Of a DNA stretch of 64,000 nucleotides, positions 844-57,495 are shown one piece after another; position 1 is the first letter of the stretch; every line of letters starts with the position of its first letter. Both the position numbers and the translations under genes were made by a program. The stretch covers positions 38,626,918 to 38,690,917 of the forward strand of contig CP136062.1 of assembly GCA_032622095.1 (NCBI GenBank). The letters are read 5' to 3'. The DNA comes from Siphonodentalium dalli. Lineage: Eukaryota; Mollusca; Scaphopoda; Gadilida; Siphonodentaliidae. Below the pieces are notes generated by a model. That model was given only the letters and a program-made list of their open reading frames with translations, made no database searches and had not been told where the DNA came from.

Positions 844-1330
844 TATCTCTGTGGAACATCACGCTCTCGCTGTAGGGGGGGGGGGTATAAAATGATTCCC
901 AGAAATGACGCAGAATAAGCGTCCACGAAAGTAAACGCATTACATATGCTTTTTCTTGCATTTTCGGGATCAACTGGTGTCAATCTAGCTGGGTAAACAT
1001 GATTGGAGTGACCTGTAGGCTTCAATTCATTGAATTTGACCAAAACGTTAACACTGTCGCCTATGGGAAACCATTTAGTTCAGTGATTCCTATAAGAAAA
1101 ATTTGAATTTTACGAAATTTCACGTTTCGCCATGTTAAGTTGTTAATTTCATATTTTTTTATATTCAAATGATAATGGCGAAATGTTCGACAGATTTAAA
1201 GAACACAAAAACAGTAGATAGTAAAGACAGTGATAAATCTGGGAATTTTGTATGGGCAGTAAGTACCATGAGAGGGGTCTGGGGTCTAAGAAAGGGCAAA
1301 GGTTAGCAGCACGCCAATTTTTTACCCTGT
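844..1330. other. Unannotated AT-rich spacer
   Basis: No gene or strong repeat was recognised here. A G-run followed by TATAAAA lies near 877-891, and the run differs in length between the two duplicate copies. Short ORFs on both strands are not preserved as proteins and look fortuitous. Confidence 0.5.
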
Positions 1331-1399
1331 GCCAATGCATTCTCTTATATATGCGAGTCGACCATAGGTCGCCTCGTATATATAAGAGAATGCATTGGC
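1331..1399 (+). repeat. 69-nt palindromic hairpin module (copy 2)
   Basis: Same length and termini as the module at 625, in forward orientation. This copy is not inside a recognisable TTAA element. It is preceded by CCCTGT and followed by a T-rich tract, so the module can exist outside family A or marks a decayed copy of it. Confidence 0.9.
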
Positions 1400-1663
1400 C
1401 TAAGAATGTTTTATCATTTTTTTATTATAAATTTTTCAGAAAATCCTCCTGTCGTGATCATGTTTATCAACTTGGGGGGGGTCTTAGAATGAAAATAGGT
1501 ACAAAAAAGGGGAACATCGCCGAGCACGCATACATTTTTAGCTCCTTTTAAAGGTTTTGAATTGTTAAGAGCTTTGCTAACCCATTTTCAACCCAAATTT
1601 GAAGGAGTGAAAATAAGGATTCTGTTCAATTTTATTAGTAATCACAGCAACCAAACCCATAGA

Positions 1664-2632
1664 CAGTGTTCGCGCTGGACCGAAAAAAACTTTAGCCAAA
1701 ACTTTAGCCAAATGAAAATTTGATTAGCCAAATGAAAAAAACTTTAGCCAAATGTTTTTTAGCCAAATTAAAAAAAACTATGGCCAAATTAAATCATCGT
1801 TTTCTGGTCGGTTCACAATTAATGACTAAAACGTCAAATCTAACAGACACAGGTAAAATACACAATAATTTAACTAATTTTGATGAACTAGAAATATTTT
1901 GATATATATCATTTATTAAAAATTTATTAATTAATCTTTATGTGGAAGAGTGATTTGGGAGGGGGGGGGTAACCCGGGATTGTCCTTCTTAATGTCATTA
2001 ATTTTTTGTTTTATATCAATATCTTTTTAAAAATCATTAAATATTAATTATCCTTGCGAAAATATTTAAGTGACATCTGGAAACTAATAACTTAATATTG
2101 TTACGCCATTATCAAATTGCAATCTGTCATAAAAGCATGCATATTATTTTGAATGTATCGGTATTGACGACAAATAGCCATAAAATATCTGTCGTGATTC
2201 ACATTTGGCTGATTAAGCTATTGTCTTACACTTGGTGCTCATAAACCTTGACCGTCATAAATACAATGTCATCATAAACATGCATTGTGCAGGAGTCCCG
2301 TGAGTGACCAGACAGACAATGGGGGATTAGCGGATTAAATGTAAAATAATGATATTTTGCTGTTTCGTGCAGAGTGACGGGGTTTCCCTTTGTACTGTCC
2401 GCGATCGGGTTTCCTTTTGTACCGTCGGCGATATATTCGCACTTACAATTTTTTCGGACTAGATCGTTCACATCACAGAATTGAAAACCCACTTGCCAAA
2501 AATTCATGCTTTCAGTCTCCATTTGGGGTCAAAAAAAGTTTAGCCAAAAGTTTAGCCAAATGAAATTTGTATTAGCCAAATTCGAAAAAGATTAGCCATT
2601 GGCTAATTTGGCTACCGACAGCGCGAACACTG
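1664..2632. mobile_element. Non-autonomous hAT-like element present only in the left duplicate
   Basis: The TIR is CAGTGTTCGCGCTG at the left and its exact complement at the right. The element is flanked by an 8-bp direct duplication, CCCATAGA (1656-1663 and 2633-2640). The right duplicate has a single CCCATAGA at the matching place, so the empty site is visible. TIRs starting CAG with an 8-bp TSD are the hallmark of hAT elements. Both subterminal regions carry many TTTAGCCAAA motifs, a pattern typical of transposase-binding sites. A 98-codon minus-strand ORF (2226-2522) has no transposase features that I recognise. Confidence 0.93.
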
Positions 2633-2996
2633 CCCATAGATGCACCATTTTAACAGTTAAAGTCATGATGGATTATCTTAGAAATACAAAATGTGAACTT
2701 TATAGATGTTTTAAAAAATATTTGTTTGAGCCCAAATCCAACAAACACAAAATCAATTTCTAAGAACAAAATATGGAAATGTGTACTAAATACTGCGAAG
2801 AACGACGAACAATAAAGTTATATTCATATTTACCAAGTGTTCTTTGACAAACTTAATTAAAACCAGCTGTTTACAAATGATAGATTCACTTCCCAAACTT
2901 GTCTGACTGGGGAGCTGGAAGCAGTTGGTTAATTATTGACAGTGGTGAATTGATAATATAACTTATTAACCCTTTACCCAAACAGAAGGGCCCTGT

Positions 2997-3065
2997 GCCA
3001 ATGCATTCTCTAATATATGCGAGTCGACCATAGGTCGCCTCGCATATATAAGAGAATGCATTGGC
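2997..3065 (+). repeat. 69-nt palindromic hairpin module (copy 3)
   Basis: Forward-oriented module inside the family A element, with the same 69-nt length and GCCAATGCATT termini. Confidence 0.9.
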
Positions 3066-3146
3066 TTAACACATTAAAAATTATAAAATTGTTAAAGAAT
3101 GTAAGAAAAAATGGTAAAAAGTGTTAAAAAAAGATTATTTTTTTAG

Positions 3147-3215
3147 GCCAATGCATTCTCTTGTATATGCGAGGCGACCTATGGTCGACTCGCATATGTA
3201 AGAGAATGCATTGGT
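3147..3215 (-). repeat. 69-nt palindromic hairpin module (copy 4)
   Basis: Reverse-oriented partner of the module at 2997, about 80 bp away. Together they form a palindrome of palindromes. The last base is changed (TTGGT). Confidence 0.9.
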
Positions 3216-4019
3216 ACAGGGCATAACTATAACCATCACAATGTGGTCAATGAGCCGGTTCCAATGATATCCATATTTGTATGGTTTTATTGAGACAGAC
3301 CCAAGATATTTTAGGCTGTTGAAGCTTTATTTGGCCTGTTTTGGCCGGTTTGTTGGGTAAAGGGTTAAGCTTCAATTTTTCACACCACCCTGTAGCCACT
3401 AAATAGGTCACCAATCATGGAATGATCCCTTACAGTCCAGTGGCCACACAGGCTGATAACAATCCCAGCGACACTGGACACAAGGTGACCCGTAATCCAC
3501 CCATCAAGTGTCACCTTCTGGACATAATTACTGAAAAAGTAAATCTACCATTTGTAAATAAGTGGTTCTGAGTAACTTTTTCAAAGAGCGTTTGGTAAAT
3601 ATGAATATATTTGTATTGTTCATCATTCTTCAGTGTTCAGTACACATTCCCATATTATTTTCTTAGATATGGACTTTGTGTTTGTTGGATTTGGGTTCGA
3701 AAAAATAGATTTTAAAAACCTCTATAAATTTCACATATAGTCTTTCCAACATAATCCATCGTGGTATTCTACATCAATGGGTTTGGTTACTGTGATTTTG
3801 TAATAAAAGTGAACATAATCGTTTATTTTGACTCCATCAAAATTTTGGGAAATTGGGGTAGCAATGTCCTTAAAAGGGGATAATGATCTAGTTTGTTTTC
3901 ATTTGATATGAATGATCTTCAACTCGTCATGTTGGATAAGATTTCCTGAAACTCGTTTGATAAGTTTGATTCACAACTCGTCTACGAATCGTTGTGAATC
4001 AAATTTATCCAACACTGCA

Positions 4020-4340
4020 TGAAAACTGGAATTTATTCATTGCATAAATTCCGGATAAATGTGCATAAATCCGGATAAATCAGAAATTTATTCACTGAAT
4101 AAATGTGCATAAATCCGGAAATTTATGCACATTTATTCACAATTTATTCATGAATAAAGGCCGACATTTATACACAATTTATTCACTGAATAAACCCACG
4201 TTTATTCAGCAGAATAAACTCGGCATTTATTCGTACGTTTATGCACATTTATTATCGACCTGTTTATGCATAAATGCGAAATTTATTCACTGAATAAAGC
4301 TGCATAAATATATAGGGCTACATTTATTCTGGTTATATAC
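4020..4340. repeat. Cluster of TTTATTCA/TGAATAAA short palindromes
   Basis: Dense, irregularly spaced copies of TTTATTCACTGAATAAA and TGCATAAATCCGG-like motifs on both strands. They give many alternative small hairpins. The spacing is irregular, so this is not a simple tandem repeat. Confidence 0.75.
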
Positions 4341-4750
4341 TCCAGTGTATGCACATTTATAGCCCGTATAAATTATTTGGATTTGAACATATATATCCAT
4401 ATATATATTTGTGAAATCTACTTTATGGTGACATTTGGCTTGTAACCAGCATATAAGGCGAAACGGGTGTGTATATCTAACTATACATATACACATGTGT
4501 CGCCCTGATTCTGGTATCTCCATGTGTAGTAATTTGCCAACAAAATGCTGCCCTATTGTTGGTTATACCAGTCACAAATATAATATGAACTACTTGGACA
4601 TGGCACTTTGTGTCATAGTTGTATCTTGCCGTCATCAATTTTCGTAGTCTCGGTAATAAAGAATAAAAATTAAATAATTAAGTGATCGCATGGGAAATAA
4701 GTATAAACGATAAAATATTAAAACTAAAATAAGAATTTTTTTTTCTGCTG

Positions 4751-5326
4751 AAGAGTGATATCGCCCTTCAAGGAACAAATTTTTTTACGGGATTCAAAAT
4801 TGTGTAACATCATGGATTTATTGTACATTGAATTTTTATGCGATATGACAAAGCGTGATATCACCCTTTCATCGCCACAATTTTACTCGATTCAAACTTC
4901 AAAACGGGATTACATCATGGACTTACTGTACAATGGATTTATATGTGATATGGCAAAGGGTGATATTACCCTTCCATTACCATAATTTTACGCGATTCTA
5001 ACTTCAAGACCGGATTACATCACGGATATATTGTACAATGAATTTATATGTGAACTGGCAAAGGGTGATATCACCCTTCCATGATCACTATTTTACGCGA
5101 TTCTAACTTCAAAACGGGATTACATCATGAATATATTGTACAATGAATTTATATGTGAACTGGCAAAGGGTGATATGACCCTTCCATGATCACTATTTTG
5201 CGCGATTAAAACTTCAAAACGGGATTACATCATGGATATATTGTACAATGGATGTATATGTGATGCTAGCAAATGATGATATCACCCTAACATGACCACA
5301 ATTGCAATTTTACGCGATTAAACTGA
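4751..5326. repeat. 105-bp tandem repeat, about 5.5 units
   Basis: Units begin at about 4751, 4851, 4956, 5061, 5166 and 5271. Each carries a GGGTGATATCACCC-type palindrome followed by TTTTACGCGATT and GGGATTACATCATGGAT. The right duplicate has one extra unit, which explains the 105-bp offset change. It is a small satellite inside the element at 3914-6217. Confidence 0.92.
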
Positions 5327-6239
5327 TGCGAATTGATGAAAGAATGAATCTGCAACTTAAATTGTGAAATAGCTTTATTTCATATTCACATATATGTTAA
5401 CTTACCCTTGGTAAAATTTATAATTAGAAAAGGAATTTAAAAACTGAAATGATGTGGAGATCATTTTCTAACCCAAGCATTTACCCCCATTGCAGACGAT
5501 GCCTTAGTTTAGACAGAACATGCGAAAACAAACGTATTTGTATATACATAATCCATATAAATACTTGCCTCATGCAGCTAATAGTTCGCATTTCTCGTGG
5601 AACACGTCTGCGCTGTAGCAGTGTTGAGAGGAAAAGAAAGCTATCTCAAACGCTTGCTTCTGTTATCTGATACAGTTCTCGCATATGTATGCTTGCTGGC
5701 GACATATGGTAATAATTAAATTATGGGCTCAGAATGAAACCGGCGGCCAGTTGCAGAAATAAGCAAAATTAATGCACGACATCTATAAGTTATTCGTTAT
5801 ATGTACATCGCCGGGCCAACATTAAGATTCTCGATTTATTTAGTATGATACCTGATTTGGTATAACTGAATGCCTGCATTATGAGAGCGGTACATTATCT
5901 GTAGGGCGTTTTGTCAGGATTCCTGATGTAAAATATATTCAGCCATGGGCCTTTTGTGGGTAAATGTTGTCAGAATGTCATTTGACTCAATGGTGTTAAA
6001 ATGACATCAAATGTTTACCACATTGCTATAAATGTTCACTGGCGACATAATAGCTCTACCGACCCCGGCACTGTTCCAAGAAAGGCGAATTTAATATGCA
6101 TAAATGCATGCATACATTCAGGGTCCTAAATTTATGCAACATTTATATTTTATAAATCTTCATGCAGTGCAACTAGTTTCATAAAATATTATATCCCAAC
6201 ATAACGAGTTGGAGATCCTCTATGTATAATATATCAATC

Positions 6240-6406
6240 AAAGACATATTATGGACTTGTTCGGGTGCATGCAACTGTAAGTTAGTACTCAGGCGCTATG
6301 CCAACTGGAGGAATGCGTCATTCTACTAACATCACCGAAAATGTCAAGCAAATCGACCTCACGACTCCATGGAAAACATCGTCTCAAATACGTTCAATTG
6401 TAAATA
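6240..6406 (+). repeat. Left half of a dispersed repeat split by a TA-site element
   Basis: The sequence from about 6243 resembles the complement of 36300-36430. The part from 6310 onward matches 10985-11087. Its continuation resumes at 8744 after the inserted element, which gives the exact insertion point. Confidence 0.75.
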
Positions 6407-8741
6407 CACAGTTAGAAAAAATACCGTCGTTTCAACGGTCTGAGACCGCGCACTATCGCTGCCAACATTTGACCGTTAAACATACGGTCAGACCGTAGCA
6501 TGTTCCACGGTATAAAACCGTTTAAGTAACGGGCAGACCGTAACCAATAACTGTCAGACCAATGGTATTTTTCATGGGTCAACACCAATTGTTTGCTCTT
6601 AATTTGCTAATTTACCATATAATTAGCCAGGTTCCCATGATGATAATATGATTCCCCGGTAGGCATTACGATTCATGTTTTTGAATGGTCGAAACTTGTA
6701 TTATTCGTAACTGAAAAATACATCTTATTTCTTATGTTACGATCCTATTTTTGATGAAATGTAAATCCTCAATGCATAAAGTGATAGACAATACTTATGA
6801 AACTTTACAGTTTGCAGAGGATAAAGCTTGTTATCGGCCTCGTAGAATTTAATCCGGAAAAGGCTGCGCACGCGTAATGTGTTCGCCTTTCACTAACTAC
6901 TGTTTAAATATGGCTGTAAATAAAAAAACGTTACTAGTAATAGCTGATAAGCCAACCCATCACTATTCAGTTATGAGAAATACTAATTTCGACCAGTCTA
7001 AAACATGAATTGGCATGCCCTTTTAAGCCATAAAAAGAACAAAGCTACATGTTTCACAGTTAAAACTCAAATGTATGTACATGTAAAAGTCAAATATCTT
7101 AATGGCATACTTTTTGGTAACTTGTAAGGCGTGAAATTGTCCAGTCACTTGTAAACAGTTTTTGTTTTAGCAGGTGAATCCGTACATCATGGCAGTACGG
7201 TACGAGTCTGAAGAAGTGGTATTTTTAGGCGCACCTTTATTGCGATATTGAGTGTGCTTAATTTAGAAAAGGCGTGATTATAGCACACTACCAAAAATCT
7301 GCCGCGCTTATTATTGCAATATTGAACGCAAAACATTGCGATACTAAGCGCGCTAAATTTCATACAAACCCGATAGTGTTATATTTATATTAGATAAATA
7401 ATGTGCATATATTGTACATATAGTGTACATACCATATAGCATTTGCAACTATAATTATATACATATCTAAAACATTGTCTCTATTTAGACAATAAACAAT
7501 ATAGAAGAAACAATAATTTGATTTAAATGTCGCAATTTTGAGCTCAAGATGTCGCAATATTAAGCGCAAAATATTGAGATATTAAGCGCAAACTATTGCA
7601 GTAATATCACAATCGACATGCTTATAAGCGGTTCCACTTGCTATATTTCGATATTGGGCGCGAAAATAGCCCGCTTAATATACCACTTCTTTTGACTGGT
7701 ACTGTATATCAATAACGGCTAGATGTTATTGGAACCTACAAGACAACAGCAGATCCCATAATAACTGTGCGCAATGACTTGGCGACAATGTTCTCCTGTT
7801 GTCGCGCATTTTCCATGACATTTTGGTATCACAACCACTTAGTATCAATGTCAGCCAAAGATGAACATGCAACCAATAATGTACTGCCGGTAAATTGTCG
7901 TAATAACTTGACGTTAACATGGCGAATGATGACAATGTCTCATGTCCACACGTTTCAATGAAAATTCAGAACACTGTCAACATAATTGTCAACATTATAA
8001 TAGTAATACTGTAGCTGCTCGTTGAGTCGTTGTTATTATTGTCACTATTGGTTGACATCGAAGCTATTGTTAATTGTATCTGTATCCTCTTGTGTCAGTA
8101 AATGTGAGTGTTTTGATACTAAGTCACACACTGTCAATTTCAACATCACTCAGTCGAATGAAGTCAGACCCCCGATCGTGCCATGAATCGATTGCCAGAA
8201 TGAATCCCTGCGCTCTAATTTAGTGGAAATTGTCAATGATTAAGCCGATTTTCGCAGAATTGAAATTTGTCCGGTTATCAAAGGAACCGAAATCAGACCG
8301 TCTTAACTGTCCACAGTGGAAAAGGTAACAGTTTCCCAAAAACAATAATTTGCGATTAAATATGCAACGCCAAATACAAAATGGCGAAAAAAAGATCTTA
8401 AGGTAGTGCTAAAGCGGGAACTTAACCCCGGTGTGAATTACTTGCTCATCAATATACGTACCGACCCGATTCACAGTGTGAATGCCGATAGTATATACAT
8501 ATTAAATAACAGTAGAGTAAGATTCAGTCATACGCATGGAGTCATTGTCGTATATAATATGGTCGCCGATAAATATACTATTGAATTTTGACGCAATGAC
8601 TTTGAATCACGAAAATATTTAATTTAGACAATTTTCATGGGCACATAAAATAACGGTATGGGACCGTCAAACTGACGAAACGGCATGAGGCCGTCTATTA
8701 TGACGGTCCGAAACCGTCGAACCGACAGTAATTTCTAAGTG
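6407..8741. mobile_element. About 2.3-kb TA-site element (Tc1/mariner-like target) without a transposase
   Basis: The element is flanked by TA on both sides. The left TIR reads CACAGTTAGAAA and the right, complemented, CACTTAGAAA, followed by related GTCG/GGTCTGAGACCG-type sequence on both sides. The related repeat at 11082-11093 has the uninterrupted site GTAAATATTTAC, so the TA target and the insertion are directly visible. Both subterminal zones (6425-6560, 8650-8730) are rich in ACGGTC/GACCGT motifs. I find no transposase ORF. A second inverted-repeat element is nested at 7193-7704. Confidence 0.8.
7193..7704. mobile_element. Nested 512-bp inverted-repeat element with ATTGCGATATT motifs
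   Basis: The ends CAGTACGGTACGAGTCTGAA and the complement CAGTACCAGTCAAAAGAAGT share AGAAGTGGTAT. Internally, the motif GCGATATTRAGCGCGC recurs about eight times on both arms. It is non-coding, and no clear TSD was found. It is probably a MITE with an unusual array of subterminal motifs. Confidence 0.65.
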
Positions 8742-19990: not shown

Positions 19991-20097
19991 TTATTAGGTC
20001 ACTTGTTTTGGAAATTGATATGATCCGTAATTAAATTCCAAATTTGGTGCAGGGCGGTTGACTAATATTCCTGAAAGTTCATGCTGCTTTGAATTTT

Positions 20098-20120
20098 CTT
20101 CTCCTGCTCACTTTCCACAG
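20098..20120 (+). promoter_or_regulatory. Splice acceptor of the sulfotransferase exon
   Basis: A pyrimidine-rich stretch (TTCTTCTCCTGCTCACTTTC) followed by CACAG ends at 20120. A branch-point-like TGACTAAT lies about 60 nt upstream. This makes the in-frame ATG at 20058 intronic rather than a start codon. Confidence 0.75.
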
Positions 20121-21053
20121 GTGACGGTGATGAAGCTGATCGAAGCCAGGTGCCGGAACTCTGACGCAATATCTGGTAGAGCGAATACCGTAATTTACTG
20201 GACTAACTTGAAATCTGCTCTGTGCGTGGTTCCAAAAGCAGCAAGCACACTACTGCGCTCGGGAATATCGGACGAGTTGGAATCAAGAGTGGGAAAGCCG
20301 ATGGTGGCCAAGGTCAAGGTCTGGAGTAGCCCGGATGTGTTCCGATACATGTTTGTGCGAAATCCTTGGTCGAGGTTATGGTCTGGATATGTCGATAAAT
20401 TGGTGATGCTCGGATTCAGAAATAACAAATTCCCAATCTTCAATGCATTGAATCTGGGCGATTGTAGTATAATTCCAACATTCGCAGAATTTATTGCATA
20501 TCTCGCTAACCACGAGAACAATCCGGGAGTTATTAACCAGCATTGGGCCCCGATCACGTTGTTGTGTGATCCCTGTTACTTTAAACCTCATTTCGTTGGT
20601 AAATTGGAAACTTTCGACGATGACCTGAAGTACATTGGACAAAAGCTTCACATTACTGACGAGATTCGTATTGCAAACGACAAAGAAGGTAAAGCTAGGA
20701 ACAAATTCTTGATCCCAAATCAACTCAATTTTTACCTCAATAACAATGCATCGTGTGGCCTGTCTATTATGGGAATTTTGCATCGGATTTGGGTTGCTAG
20801 CATACTGACAGGTCGCATAAACAACAAAGCAGTCTTCCCCCAGGCTGAGCTCGAAGCGATCCAACCATTTACATTACAGCGATCGGATCTTATCGTTGAC
20901 ATATTTAAAAAGTACAGCCTTGAGGGGGAGGCTCGACGAGCGCAGAAGAATCTTCTACGAGATAATGCCTACGCGGAAATTCCAGACGACCTTAAATCGC
21001 GCATCAGACGAATGTATAATGACGACTTTACGTTGTTTGGATACGACCCGTGA
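20121..21053 (+). CDS. Carbohydrate sulfotransferase (HNK-1ST/CHST8-14-like), 3' terminal coding exon
   Basis: The product transfers sulfate from PAPS to a glycan hydroxyl in the Golgi lumen (family knowledge, Sulfotransfer_2). The open frame runs from 20058 (331 codons), but the acceptor at 20120 places the real exon at codon 22. Numbered on that frame, the 5'-phosphosulfate-binding loop is CVVPKAASTLLR (56-67). The 3'-phosphate-binding motif is RNPWSRLWSGYVDK (101-114). QHWAPITLLCDPC and FVGKLETFDDD (161-189) are family-conserved. The C-terminus YNDDFTLFGYDP is the usual ending. The N-terminal cytosolic tail and signal anchor are missing, so one or more 5' exons must lie upstream; none was recognised. 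Residues 230-270 are unlike common family members. The exact glycan substrate cannot be told. Confidence 0.92.
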   Translation: MTVMKLIEARCRNSDAISGRANTVIYWTNLKSALCVVPKAASTLLRSGISDELESRVGKPMVAKVKVWSSPDVFRYMFVRNPWSRLWSGYVDKLVMLGFRNNKFPIFNALNLGDCSIIPTFAEFIAYLANHENNPGVINQHWAPITLLCDPCYFKPHFVGKLETFDDDLKYIGQKLHITDEIRIANDKEGKARNKFLIPNQLNFYLNNNASCGLSIMGILHRIWVASILTGRINNKAVFPQAELEAIQPFTLQRSDLIVDIFKKYSLEGEARRAQKNLLRDNAYAEIPDDLKSRIRRMYNDDFTLFGYDP

Positions 21054-31190: not shown

Positions 31191-32088
31191 TGTAGATAAT
31201 GAGTCGAAACGTAATGTGACACTTGCTTAGTATGACACATAGTCATCGATCTACAAATGATGATGATCTAATTCATTTTGGCATCTTTTCAACTCATTTG
31301 GGAGTAATTTCCAAAAATGTCTAAACGCTACTTTTGCACTGGCGCTCATCTGCTACTCGAGATTCGCCGCAGTTCCGAAAAATGCTACACCGCACTTCCC
31401 GAAAAGCTACGTTTCAGATGTGATATTAATGGAAAAATCGAGGATATTTTCGCAAAATGGTAAGTATTTTAGCTTTCATAAACTATTTCTCAAAGAAACA
31501 ATTTGCATATGTGATCGGACTATTTTAACAATGATGTGTACCTCACAATAATACAGAAATGTTTCTCAATTTTGACGTGATAGTCATTTATCAGCTCGAT
31601 TTTTGGTGTTCATTTGGAAAGTGCCACTAAAAAGTGCGCCCCTTTTGTGCCAAAGTTACACCTGGACGTTTAATAAGGAAACATAGTTTGCCCTGCATCT
31701 TTAGGTTTATGAAGTTATAAAATGTTCGCTTATAGTGTTCGGTACATGACAAAAACGGGCTTTGTAAACAATACATGCATGCTACGTTTCCGATTTTCGC
31801 ACGCTACTTTTCTCATTTTACAAGAATTGATACGCTACAGTTCTCTCCTCCAAATATCTCCGGGATAAATAATGCAAAAATCGGTAATAATCTGAGTAAA
31901 TTCTCGAACATTATCCATATTATTATTCAAAATAAACACAAAAGTCTGTCAGAAATTATATCCTTTGATTTTAGTAGCTTTATTTTGGTATTTTCCGCGA
32001 TTTATTACTGTTTTGTCCCCCACTAACTCCAAACGCCGTGTGGTCAAACATCCATACATATATTTAGGATATATTTACATACATGCAG

Positions 32089-32244
32089 GTCTATGCGTAA
32101 TCTACTATGGACACTTAAATGCTACTGTTATATAATGAATGGGGCTGATGAGTACCTGTATCGCATAACAACCATTGATCACGTGGCAATTGCCAACATG
32201 CTTCTGCCTGCAGCTGGGCATGTCCTCAGTTATCAAATTCGAAG
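32089..32244 (+). CDS. Possible internal exon (weak)
   Basis: A 156-nt segment open in one frame, preceded by TTACATACATGCAG and followed by the donor-like GTATGT. Both junctions would be phase 2. It would encode about 51 residues including NGADEYLYRITTIDHVAIA. I recognise no domain and no partner exons. If real, it would be a second gene inside the TIR block, convergent with the zinc-finger gene. Confidence 0.18.
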
Positions 32245-32367
32245 GTATGTTTTTAAATGGTTGGGGAAAAAGAGAGATTTATTTTTATTTTAAATACATA
32301 TTTTGAAAGTGTGTGTAAATATAACAGACGAATTGTTTTTACCCGAAGTGCATGTATTTGTATGGAT

Positions 32368-32436
32368 GCATGTTGGTATGCCAAAGTCATGTTTGGGGCG
32401 TTTCGGTGCCCCACACACTTTGTCATACCAACATGC
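32368..32436. ncRNA. Pre-miRNA-like 69-nt hairpin
   Basis: GCATGTTGGTATG (32368-32380) pairs perfectly with 32424-32436. After a C/T mismatch, CAAAGT pairs with ACTTTG. After a small internal loop, TGGGGC pairs with GCCCCA around an 8-nt loop. Twenty-five base pairs in 69 nt fits a microRNA precursor. It lies about 330 nt beyond the zinc-finger stop codon, possibly in that gene's 3' UTR in the opposite sense. I do not recognise the arms as a known miRNA, and it could be a MITE remnant. Confidence 0.4.
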
Positions 32437-32761
32437 AGCCTTACAACATGGAAATGCAGGAAACGAACATCGATTTCTGAAATATGTACTAAGTGGTTTG
32501 GACCATATATTGTACATATCGTTTCAATCGGGCCTCATATGATTAGAACACTGATCAGCCAAAATATTAAAGCATGTATGCATCACAATTAATATCATTG
32601 AAACAATAATAACTAAAAAAAAATTAAACACATAAGGTATCACATCGGTTGTCTTCCTGTGTGTGTCCTGGTGAAACTTTCACTTTTCACTGCATCATTT
32701 GCATGGGCGTGTACAAATAACATTTCTATATTATAAACACTTTCTGAACATATAGTCAGAC

Positions 32762-33631
32762 CTATCCCTGAACACATTTGTGGCCGGTTTCTCTCCTATG
32801 TCGGCAATATGAAGGGCGCCACTTGTACCTCTTTCCACAAGAACATTCATAGATCTTGCTTTGGTGCATCCCTTGAATGTGATCCTTGAGCACCCGTTGT
32901 GAGCTGAAGCTCCCACTACATATATTACAAACGCGTTTAGGCGCATTGCAGTTGGTGATGTGAGACTTTAAACTTTTATCATGCAAGAAGGTACTGCTAC
33001 ATGTAGTACATCTATGAGACGGACGGATTCCGCTGTGCAATGTCATATGGGTAGCGAGATCCTTCTTTGTGTAAGATTCCTTGTTACAGGTTCCGCATTT
33101 ATACCTCGACGATGAGGCATGTCGTACTCTCATGTGACTCATCAGGCCACTATGGGTTGTATATTTCTGAGAGCAGAGATGACACAGTAACTCACTATTT
33201 CCTGATGTGTGCTGAGACCTGTGTCTCTTTAATTCATATTTGTCGTGAAAAGCTTTCGAACATTGATCGCATTCGTACTTTTTGTTCACCTCATGTGTGG
33301 ATATATGTCGACGATAGTTTCCGCGGATATTCGTGGAGTATTGGCATATGCCACATTCATATTTCTTCCGATTCTCGACATTAATGGCATTATCATGGTC
33401 TTCAACCTGAGGTTGTTGTGACGTAACCTGTGGTTTTTGTGGCGTGCTTGTCGCTATGGGTTCACACAATGAATCCGGAACGTTGATTGAGGAGGTCTGT
33501 GGTTCATCACACAATGAATCCGGAACGTCGATTGAGGTATCAGCGGTCTGATCAATCAGATGGCACGACAAATCCAACAAGAACGCAGACTCCTCCAAAG
33601 ATATCATGGACCCTTCGATCCCAGCGTACAT
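32762..33631 (-). CDS. C2H2 zinc-finger protein, seven fingers
   Basis: A 289-residue frame. The N-terminus (1-90) is acidic and Ser/Thr/Gln-rich, with a duplicated VPDSLC motif (36-41 and 51-56). Zinc fingers lie at 91-113, 119-141, 148-171, 177-199, 206-228 (last ligand Cys, C2HC), 233-256 and 261-284 (only one residue between the two Cys, degenerate). Linkers such as EVNKK and SGIRP are not the canonical TGEKP. It is probably a nuclear DNA-binding protein; its targets cannot be told. TATTTTTTTAG lies immediately before AATG, so a 5' exon may splice in here. The gene sits inside the 31337-34873 TIR block, and its upstream side is interrupted by a MITE. Confidence 0.85.
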   Translation of the reverse strand: MYAGIEGSMISLEESAFLLDLSCHLIDQTADTSIDVPDSLCDEPQTSSINVPDSLCEPIATSTPQKPQVTSQQPQVEDHDNAINVENRKKYECGICQYSTNIRGNYRRHISTHEVNKKYECDQCSKAFHDKYELKRHRSQHTSGNSELLCHLCSQKYTTHSGLMSHMRVRHASSSRYKCGTCNKESYTKKDLATHMTLHSGIRPSHRCTTCSSTFLHDKSLKSHITNCNAPKRVCNICSGSFSSQRVLKDHIQGMHQSKIYECSCGKRYKWRPSYCRHRRETGHKCVQG

Positions 33632-33688
33632 TCTAAAAAAATATTATATAATGTAATTTTAAGTCGATATCCTACATATAAATACAAC

Positions 33689-34154
33689 CAGGGACGTTTC
33701 GACAGGGGATGGGTGTGACCATCCACCCCCCCCCCCCCCCCCAAATTGCCAAAACCTTCAACTTTTTGAAATTTCAAAGCTTCTACCTGTAATTTTGTTC
33801 AATTTTTATGTTTCAGTTGGTAATTCAGACTCCTAGGTGGCTGACTAGTTGAAAAGTTTTGGAAATTTGGGAATATTTAGTTGGGAAAATTCCAATATTT
33901 GGACATTTTAGATACTTTATTGGGGGGGGGTGTGCAAATGGAGGGGGGTGCAAATGGAATTTCGTAAATTCTGATACTAGGAACTGATCGATACTAGATT
34001 TGGAACATTTGATCCCAAGCGGGTTGGGGTACAATTTCCCATATTTGGAAATTTGGTATAGTTGATCGGAATATTTAGCATTTATTCCCAAGAGGGTGCA
34101 ATTGGAATTTCCGAAGTTGACACCCCCATTCCCGACATATTCGCAACGTCCCTG
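33689..34154. mobile_element. 466-bp hAT-like MITE upstream of the zinc-finger gene
   Basis: CAGGGACGTTTCGA at the left and, complemented, CAGGGACGTTGCGA at the right. These are followed by diverged inverted GGGGATGGG sequence. C- and G-homopolymers occur inside (33726-33742, 33921-33930). CAGGG termini suggest hAT, but the flanks (AATACAAC, TGTATAAC) match only partly as a TSD. It lies 58 bp upstream of the zinc-finger ATG, in its promoter or first intron. Confidence 0.75.
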
Positions 34155-34879
34155 TGTATAACAATATTAATATGGAGAAGAAATACAATTATGCCCACTG
34201 CAATGCCATATACAAAAGTTACATTTGGTCGGGTATCAGTTCGGTGAACGTGGCCGCAGCAGCATAATCGTTCGGGGATGTCCCGTCTTTTAGCTGAAAT
34301 GAGGCAGCATCATGGCCCAGAATACACCGGAAAATCACCAAATAAGATAATACGAATGGCGTATCGATTAGGAAATGTAGCATATTTTTTCGGAAAAGTC
34401 TTAAAAACGTAGCATGTTTTCGGAGAGGAAAAGTAGCATTTATGAGCACGTTTAAACTGCCGATTTCGGTCGAATAAGAGGTCAATATTGCAATATAATG
34501 CACATCCATATATTCAAAATATATCCATCTGTTAAAATACAAGATTCTACAACCACGACAAGATGTTATCATACTATACCATCCGTTGTTTTGGTTCACA
34601 TTTTTAGTGACAAAAGCACACGAATATCTTGCTGCTTTATACGTGTCGAAAAAGCACATTTCATGAGATTTATTAGTGTCACCCAGGCTAGTGATAATTG
34701 GGACTTTTATATTAAATAAATTTGACTACAAATATATTACCTGATATTCTCTGTTTTCAAACAAAACGCGTCAACACACATTCAAAACCGGATGTGAAAC
34801 GTAGCGTCTCGATTCTGCGCAGTAGCATTTTTCGGAACTGCGGCGAATCTCGAGTAGCAGATGAGCGCCCGTGTTTTGG

Positions 34880-55090: not shown

Positions 55091-57495
55091 GATCTTCAAC
55101 TCGTCATGTTGGATAAGATTTCATGAAACTCGTTTGATAAGTTTGATTCACAACTCGTCTACGAATCGTTGTGAATCAAATGTATCCAACACTGCATGAA
55201 AACTGGAATTTATTCATTGCATAAATTCCGGATAAATGTGCATAAATCCGGATAAATCAGAAATTTATTCACTGAATAAATGTGCATAAATCCGGAAATT
55301 TATGCACATTTATTCACAATTTATTCATGAATAAAGGCCGACATTTATACACAATTTATTCACTGAATAAACCCACGTTTATTCAGCAGAATAAACTCGG
55401 CATTTATTCGTACGTTTATGCACATTTATTATCGACCTGTTTATGCATAAATGCGAAATTTATTCACTGAATAAAGCTGCATAAATATATAGGGCTACAT
55501 TTATTCTGGTTATATACTCCAGTGTATGCACATTTATACCCCGTATAAATTATTTGGATTTGAACATATATATCCATATATATTTGTGAAATCTACTTTA
55601 TGGTGACATTTGGCTTGTAACCAGCATATAAGGCGAAACGGGTGTGTATATCTAACTATACATATACACATGTGTCGCCCTGATTCTGGTATCTCCATGT
55701 GTAGTAATTTGCCAACAAAATGCTGCCCTATTGTTGGTTATACCAGTCACAAATATAATATGAACTACTTGGACATGGCACTTTGTGTCATAGTTGTATC
55801 TTGCCGTCATCAATTTTCGTAGTCTCGGTAATAAAGAATAAAAATTAAATAATTAAGTGATCGCATGGGAAATAAGTATAAACGATAAAATATTAAAACT
55901 AAAATAAGAATTTTTTTTTCTGCTGAAGAGTGATATCGCCCTTCAAGGAACAAATTTTTTTACGGGATTCAAAATTGTGTAACATCATGGATTTATTGTA
56001 CATTGAATTTTTATGCGATATGACAAAGCGTGATATCACCCTTTCATCGCCACAATTTTACTCGATTCAAACTTCAAAACGGGATTACATCATGGACTTA
56101 CTGTACAATGGATTTATATGTGATATGGCAAAGGGTGATATTACCCTTCCATTACCATAATTTTACGCGATTCTAACTTCAAGACCGGATTACATCACGG
56201 ATATATTGTACAATGAATTTATATGTGAACTGGCAAAGGGTGATATCACCCTTCCATGATCACTATTTTACGCGATTCTAACTTCAAAACGGGATTACAT
56301 CATGAATATATTGTACAATGAATTTATATGTGAACTGGCAAAGGGTGATATCACCCTTCCATGATCACTATTTTACGCGATTCTAACTTCAAAACGGGAT
56401 TAGATCACGGATATATTGTAGAATGAATTTATATGTGAACTGGCAAAGGGTGATATGACCCTTCCATGATCACTATTTTGCGCGATTAAAACTTCAAAAC
56501 GGGATTACATCATGGATATATTGTACAATGGATGTATATGTGATGCTAGCAAATGATGATATCACCCTAACATGACCACAATTGCAATTTTACGCGATTA
56601 AACTGATGCGAATTGATGAAAGAATGAATCTGCAACTTAAATTGTGAAATAGCTTTATTTCATATTCACATATATGTTAACTTACCCTTGGTAAAATTTA
56701 TAATTATAAAAGGAATTTAAAAACTGAAATGATGTGGAGATCATTTTCTAACCCAAGCATTTACCCCCATTGCAGACGATGCCTTAGTTTAGACAGAACA
56801 TGCGAAAACAAACGTATTTGTATATACATAATCCATATAAATACTTGCCTCATGCAGCTAATAGTTCGCATTTCTCGTGGAACACGTCTGCGCTGTAGCA
56901 GTGTTGAGAGGAAAAGAAAGCTATCTCAAACGCTTGCTTCTGTTATCTGATACAGTTCTCGCATATGTATGCTTGCTGGCGACATATGGTAATAATTAAA
57001 TTATGGGCTCAGAATGAAACCGGCGGCCAGTTAGAAATAAGCAAAATTAATGCACGACATCTATAAGTTATTCGTTATATGTACATCGCCGGGCCAACAT
57101 TAAGATTCTCGATTTATTTAGTATGATACCTGATTTGGTATAACTGAATGCCTGCATTATGAGAGCGGTACATTATCTGTTGGGCGTTTTGTCAGGATAC
57201 CTGATGTAAAATATATTCAGCCATGGGCCTTTTGTGGGTAAATGTTGTCAGAATGTCATTTGACTCAATGGTGTTAAAATGACATCAAATGTTTACCACA
57301 TTGCTATAAATGTTCACTGGCGACATAATAGCTCTACCGACCCCGGCACTGTTCCAAGAAAGGCGAATTTAATATGCATAAATGCATGCATACATTCAGG
57401 GTCCTAAATTTATGCAACATTTATATTTTATAAATCTTCATGCAGTGCAACTAGTTTCATAAAATATTATATCCCAACATAACGAGTTGGAGATC
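55091..57495. mobile_element. About 2.4-kb element with internal satellite (right duplicate)
   Basis: Counterpart of 3914-6217 with the same inverted ends. It is longer mainly because of one additional 105-bp satellite unit. Confidence 0.55.
55926..56606. repeat. 105-bp tandem repeat, about 6.5 units (right duplicate)
   Basis: Same unit as at 4751. The additional unit lies at roughly 56340-56445 and is nearly identical to its neighbour, as expected from recent unequal exchange or slippage. Confidence 0.92.

Follow-up and report, generated by a model that had tools for sequence, protein, structure and literature searches.

A 64-kb window of the genome of Siphonodentalium dalli (by the window we mean the whole stretch of DNA analysed here, 64,000 nucleotides) contains at positions 31337–34873 a block of 3,537 bp in which a multi-finger zinc-finger gene is enclosed by inverted repeats. 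Is this block a transposon to which the zinc-finger gene belongs, or a host gene that has been mobilised by a pair of opposed ends?

The element and its insertion site

The block is bounded by terminal inverted repeats (TIRs) of 52 bp with a single mismatch (CACTGG at the left, CACGGG at the right), which can be extended to 58 bp at 95% identity. The left repeat (CACTGGCGCTCATCTGCTAC...) occupies 31337–31388 on the plus strand and is also present at the ends of approximately 17 copies; the right repeat (CACGGGCGCTCATCTGCTAC...) occupies 34822–34873 on the minus strand. A 38-bp core of the TIR occurs at only two places in the 64-kb window, the two ends of the element, where 0 are expected. Further in, the block GCTACGTTTC occurs at 31406 and 34796 in inverted orientation, and immediately outside the repeats TTTTG is present on the left (31332–31336) and on the right (34874–34878) as an exact 5-bp direct duplication that fits at no other length. 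A preliminary description of this DNA had remarked on the bounded block, the inner inverted block and the TTTTG on both flanks, and each of these observations is borne out.

When the flanks of the element are joined with a single TTTTG, the resulting sequence is matched without gaps and at 100% (300/300 bases) in at least 13 places. These empty sites are paralogous, belonging to repeated DNA of C2 and C5, and since they match at 100% over 300 bp the block is a true, recent insertion: the element is young and has recently moved. That the inverted repeats and TTTTG arose by chance, or that the block is an artefact of assembly, is scarcely conceivable and is refuted by the multiple copies, the exact duplications at every readable copy and the empty sites.

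The insertion site is part of a tandemly repeated unit of ~46–50 kb (window 1–64000; C2:38.36–38.72 Mb; C5:263.06–263.66 Mb), of which there are near-identical copies on two chromosomes as well as dispersed copies at 88–91%. A 105-bp satellite is found at 4807–5303 of the window and again at 55982–56583. Also within the unit, at window positions 20058–21053, is an ORF of 331 aa with a carbohydrate sulfotransferase-like Sulfotransfer_2 domain (E 1e-27).

A longer relative, a second family and the zinc-finger gene

When all 2.23 Gb of the genome (9 contigs) were searched with the left end and the right end, the matches paired into approximately 17 elements with both ends, ranging in length from 1.75 to 13.6 kb, and the terminal pattern had 29 exact matches genome-wide compared to 0 for a reversed control. 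Both ends could be read in 11 elements, ten of the window family and one of a second family described below, and all 11 are flanked by exact target duplications, of 5 bp in eight cases and of 6 bp in three (3/10 window-family copies).

One copy, C2:28377487–28388597, is 11.1 kb long, has window-type ends and the duplication CTTAT, and is 98.6–99.5% identical to the window copy over the regions that they have in common. It contains the zinc-finger ORF of the window copy, at 99%, together with transposase exons in which a YqaJ domain scores 30 bits against a Pfam cut-off of 22 and which are broken by one stop codon and one frameshift; no intact autonomous copy of the window family was seen. Comparison with this copy by blastn placed an internal-deletion junction at about 32348–32358, where the window copy lacks ~7.5 kb (C2 copy positions about 1121–8601), including most of the transposase gene, and it has kept both ends, the transposase 5′ exons and the whole zinc-finger gene. 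The middle deletions differ between copies, and those compared directly all retain the left 0.8–0.9 kb and the right 1.2–1.3 kb of the 11.1-kb copy, a pattern like that of P elements and Ds. A different deletion has spared the zinc-finger gene at C8:64828674, and an internal deletion has removed it at C8:119780701. Indeed, in most deletion copies the gene is broken or absent, and it is therefore not needed in cis; a few copies keep it intact with the transposase missing or broken. To judge from these alignments, the window element is a non-autonomous deletion derivative of an 11.1-kb-type DNA transposon.

The copy at C7:186678960 owes its extra length to a Gypsy retrotransposon nested within it, which has an open reading frame of 1690 aa (L023 3816–8885; C7:186.68 Mb). 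Pairs of oppositely oriented copies with identical flanks (C8:2.05 and 2.22 Mb; C3:282.52 Mb) suggest inverted segmental duplications.

The block is not a complete transposon, as its large deletion relative to the 11.1-kb copy shows. The preliminary description had seen no known transposase, which is true of the window copy insofar as most of that gene is deleted but not of its relative; the proposal that full-length relatives be examined for a transposase was in this respect rewarded. The suggestion of a mobile element that encodes a zinc-finger protein agrees with the recurrence of related copies with the same gene. Of the two features anticipated in copies found with the TIR, the zinc-finger ORF does recur among the paired elements, whereas the 5-bp duplication gives way to one of 6 bp in 3 of 11. 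Copies without the gene, and other duplication lengths, had been named as observations that would count against this suggestion, and both exist, but this holds in a formal sense only: gene-less copies such as C8:119780701 are the same element, internally deleted.

The zinc-finger gene of the window copy (32762–33631, minus strand) is intact and encodes 289 aa with an N-terminal (I/L)SLEES motif; an acceptor-like TTTTTTTAG lies directly upstream. The seven fingers counted initially are present as seven modules, but only five of these are C2H2, finger 5 being C2HC and the last having an unusual CxC. A 5′ exon or leader is predicted at 34741–34873 on the minus strand, with a donor CAG/GTAATA at 34740, and GTAAGT-type donors are similarly placed in two other families. 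The intron region of the gene also contains a nested inverted repeat of ~490 bp (window 33676–34167) that may be a MITE; its ends are CAGGGACGTT-like, it includes poly-G/C tracts, and it is present in the long copy too.

A second family is represented by C6:210899398–210909265, an element of 9,868 bp with ends CACTGGGGCTCACCTGCGATC and the duplication AATCA. Its transposase comprises two open exons, the long copy being matched at 53% identity over the region of the first and at 48% over the second, and its zinc-finger gene, which lies towards the right end on the other strand, specifies a protein that is 34–37% identical to that of the window, with the same finger order and the N-terminal motif LSLEES. 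The plan common to both families consists of CAC...GTG ends, a 5-bp duplication and two opposed genes, that of the transposase at the left end and the C2H2 gene at the right. Related zinc-finger ORFs occur in two further families, in which CACGGGGG- or CACTGGTG- ends (CAC[TG]GG) are situated ~0.65–0.9 kb upstream of the ORF. Within families dN/dS is 0.43–0.76; between families the synonymous sites are saturated, and despite this the protein is conserved.

It is highly improbable that the gene is a passenger, that is, a C2H2 gene which the ends took up from the host and which has no role in transposition. C2H2 genes are plentiful in the host and the gene is lost or broken in most deletion copies, as might be expected of a passenger, but a SLEES orthologue with the same finger order, place and orientation occurs in an independent family with 48% identity in the transposase, zinc-finger relatives lie near CAC[TG]GG ends in two more families, and the protein has been conserved between families over a distance that saturates synonymous sites. 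The idea of a host gene mobilised by opposed ends, which the preliminary description had entertained, is largely refuted by the second family. Because the second and further families carry the zinc-finger gene, it is the transposons' own gene and not cargo, and it appears from these comparisons to be a standing, conserved gene of these transposons.

Other zinc-finger relatives were also found. Six copies related to the element gene follow one another in tandem at intervals of ~2.88 kb at C4:30054449–30069439, possibly a domesticated or amplified form, and at least 10 copies of another family, including C5:1050643, C9:201665649, C9:123984221, C5:17853040 and C1:249311091, resemble the second-family zinc-finger protein over its first 170 aa only, at ~40–42% identity. 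Among the matches listed, no zinc-finger match adjoins the transposase relatives of 35% identity.

The transposase and its built-in nuclease

What is left of the transposase gene in the window, as read from the sequence, is a probable start codon with a splice donor directly after it (ATG/GTAAGT; 31457–31459, plus strand), for which the second family has a matching ATG/GTGAGT arrangement, and a predicted remnant of an internal 5′ exon (32089–32244, plus strand) between a GCAG acceptor and a GTATGT donor. In the alignment the catalytic blocks D, D, DxxH and E are conserved as SFDGKK, SSDGQF, DCHH and DSENFF, in that order. The transposase has in these the DDE triad and the D(2)H motif of the P superfamily, although the latter, being found in hAT, MuDR, Kolobok and Dada as well, is not specific to that superfamily. 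The YqaJ domain, which exceeds the Pfam cut-off and has an intact PD...EIK motif, lies between the D1 and D2 blocks. At C1:120112372, C7:95920471 and C2:136339218 the listed matches to a first-half query (D1 plus YqaJ) share a single long open frame with those to the D2 region, and in L037 the end of YqaJ is continuous with the D2 half.

An AlphaFold model of exon 2 of the second family, corresponding to the second half of the transposase, was of modest confidence (mean pLDDT 57.6, pTM 0.48); its top Foldseek matches were 6p5a/6pe2, the Drosophila P transposase (E 0.0065, prob 1.00), and VIA gave a Z of 18.0 over 281 residues for that protein, followed by RAG1 with a Z of 5.5. The model of the D1 and YqaJ segment was unusable (pLDDT 34), and the fold comparison covers the second half of the transposase. 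Pfam TNP-like_RNaseH_N scored a weak 14.5 bits, or 18.3 with the YqaJ insert removed, below its cut-off of 24.6, with aligned positions that fit, and the transposase, used as a profile against PDB sequences, gave no meaningful match. The N-terminal exons of both families, the first short ones of which are predicted, contain no match to a THAP domain and have in its place a single CxxC...H...H finger. Taken together, the alignment and the model predict that the full version encodes a P-element-like transposase with a YqaJ-type (lambda-exonuclease-like) nuclease between the first two catalytic aspartates.

The P superfamily (P element, 1360/Hoppel, Galileo, THAP9) provides the best fold match and shares with this transposon the DDE and DxxH motifs, inverted repeats accompanied by subterminal repeats that resemble binding sites, and many internally deleted non-autonomous copies. 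However, that superfamily is recognised by a duplication of 7–8 bp and by THAP (PMC4168063; PMC7776569), whereas here the duplication is 5–6 bp and a single finger was found where THAP went undetected; in addition, YqaJ is placed between D1 and D2, there is an extra C2H2 gene, the element measures 10–11 kb compared to 2.9 kb, and Pfam similarity is sub-threshold. The transposon works like a P element, to which it is closest in fold, and its duplication length, undetected THAP and inserted nuclease put it outside the P superfamily as defined.

We consider it improbable that the transposon belongs instead to a known nuclease-bearing superfamily. Both ISL2EU and KolobokE have been described with lambda-exonuclease/YqaJ-type proteins (PMC4482050; PMC9587614): the former is, like ours, a eukaryotic DNA transposon encoding a YqaJ domain, and the latter combines a DDE transposase of the C/DxxH group, a motif common to Kolobok, with a lambda-exonuclease-like nuclease. 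Moreover, one cannot assume that the PDB includes a Kolobok structure, and the fold match by itself therefore does not separate P from Kolobok. ISL2EU (PHIS superfamily), however, has an AT duplication, a YqaJ domain in a separate ORF and a Harbinger-like transposase with HTH and THAP (PMC4482050), whereas the window family has 5–6-bp duplications and YqaJ inside the transposase, and KolobokE has TTAA duplications, 5′-RR ends and a downstream nuclease (PMC9587614), whereas here TTAA is seen in 0 of 11 duplications, the ends are CAC...GTG and the nuclease is between D1 and D2. A CCHC pattern, sought as a sign of Kolobok, was not found in the transposase. Transib and RAG-like transposons make a 5-bp duplication and have ends beginning CAC, as is the case here apart from the 3 of 11 duplications of 6 bp, and RAG1 is the second-best fold; nevertheless, the duplication in our transposon is mixed (5–6 bp) and its modelled fold is far nearer that of P transposase (Z 18 versus 5.5 for RAG1).

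Subterminal sites and the zinc-finger protein

GCTAC, whose recurrence near both ends had been pointed out at the outset, is arranged in four inward-pointing clusters. On the left these are an outer cluster (31352–31410, plus strand) with sites at 31352, 31384 and 31406 (element positions 16, 48 and 70) and an inner cluster (31781–31838, plus strand) with sites at 31781, 31803 and 31834 (positions 445, 467 and 498); on the right, counted from the right end, they are an inner cluster at 437, 461 and 493 (34377–34437, minus strand) and an outer cluster at 16, 48 and 69 (34801–34858, minus strand). The 12 sites compare with a shuffle mean of 0.7 and a shuffle maximum of 5, and all six matches to GCTACNTTTC in the 64-kb window are inside the arrays, three per end and in opposed orientation (0.43 expected). 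The second family has sites of a different sequence, GCGAT/GCGCT...ATTC, at 16, 48, 71, 458, 480 and 511 on the left and at 16, 49, 70, 454 and 509 on the right, 11 being located in both ends together; the inner ones were found with a matrix built from the outer ones, and most exceed the shuffle range. For a third family the inner-site matrix search was below the shuffle threshold, though sites are readable by eye. The spacing of about 22 and 32 bp, or roughly two and three turns of the helix, is similar in the window and second families whereas the sequences differ, and this conservation of spacing with changing sequence leads us to infer that a zinc-finger protein encoded by the element, either the accessory protein or the transposase, reads the subterminal sites. 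TnpA of maize En/Spm, a second element protein that is not C2H2, has its binding sites in subterminal motifs repeated at either end. The likeness is one of working only: a second element protein together with repeated subterminal motifs, here putatively bound.

It is possible, if on balance doubtful, that the main function of the zinc-finger protein is to repress or activate transcription (compare P-element KP and maize TnpA) and that it is not a part of the transposition complex, in which case short copies that retain the gene would be self-limiting regulators. Such a regulator would be in keeping with the position of the zinc-finger promoter region and of the 5′ exons of the transposase, both among the site clusters, with the few copies that have an intact gene and an absent or broken transposase, and with the finding that deleted P elements often encode repressors (PMC7776569); the outer sites, on the other hand, are within or beside the TIR, where they could also serve in recognition of the ends.

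We think it very probable that the window element is a young, non-autonomous, internally deleted cut-and-paste transposon with a relative of ~11 kb that encodes a YqaJ-bearing transposase of the P fold and an opposed C2H2 gene. In the autonomous-type relative the two genes would be read inward, one from each end, on opposite strands. Transposase supplied in trans would recognise the CAC...GTG ends and make staggered cuts of 5–6 bp. The subterminal sites would be bound by a zinc-finger protein of the element (the accessory protein or the N-terminal finger of the transposase), which might pair the ends, regulate the two promoters that lie among the sites, or both, and a shortened copy with the zinc-finger gene could serve as a helper or a repressor.

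More tentatively, we suggest that these transposons may constitute a new superfamily-level lineage in animals, characterised by a P-fold transposase with an inbuilt YqaJ domain, CAC...GTG ends, 5–6-bp duplications and a dedicated C2H2 protein that reads ~12 symmetrically arrayed subterminal sites, the spacing of which is constant whereas their sequence shifts with the protein between families. There is a fair chance that the lineage is separate, set apart from P, ISL2EU and Kolobok by their descriptions, and it may already have a family name; in the literature on YqaJ and transposons, represented here largely by titles and abstracts, no description of such an arrangement is apparent. If right, this would add a type of transposon with an exonuclease domain inside the transposase and an accompanying zinc-finger gene, and would give a handle on the role of the puzzling YqaJ nucleases found in several groups of transposons. 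For annotators, intact C2H2 genes of this type would be transposon genes, and the similar spacing and differing sequence of the sites within one genome would offer a natural test of co-evolution between C2H2 proteins and their targets.
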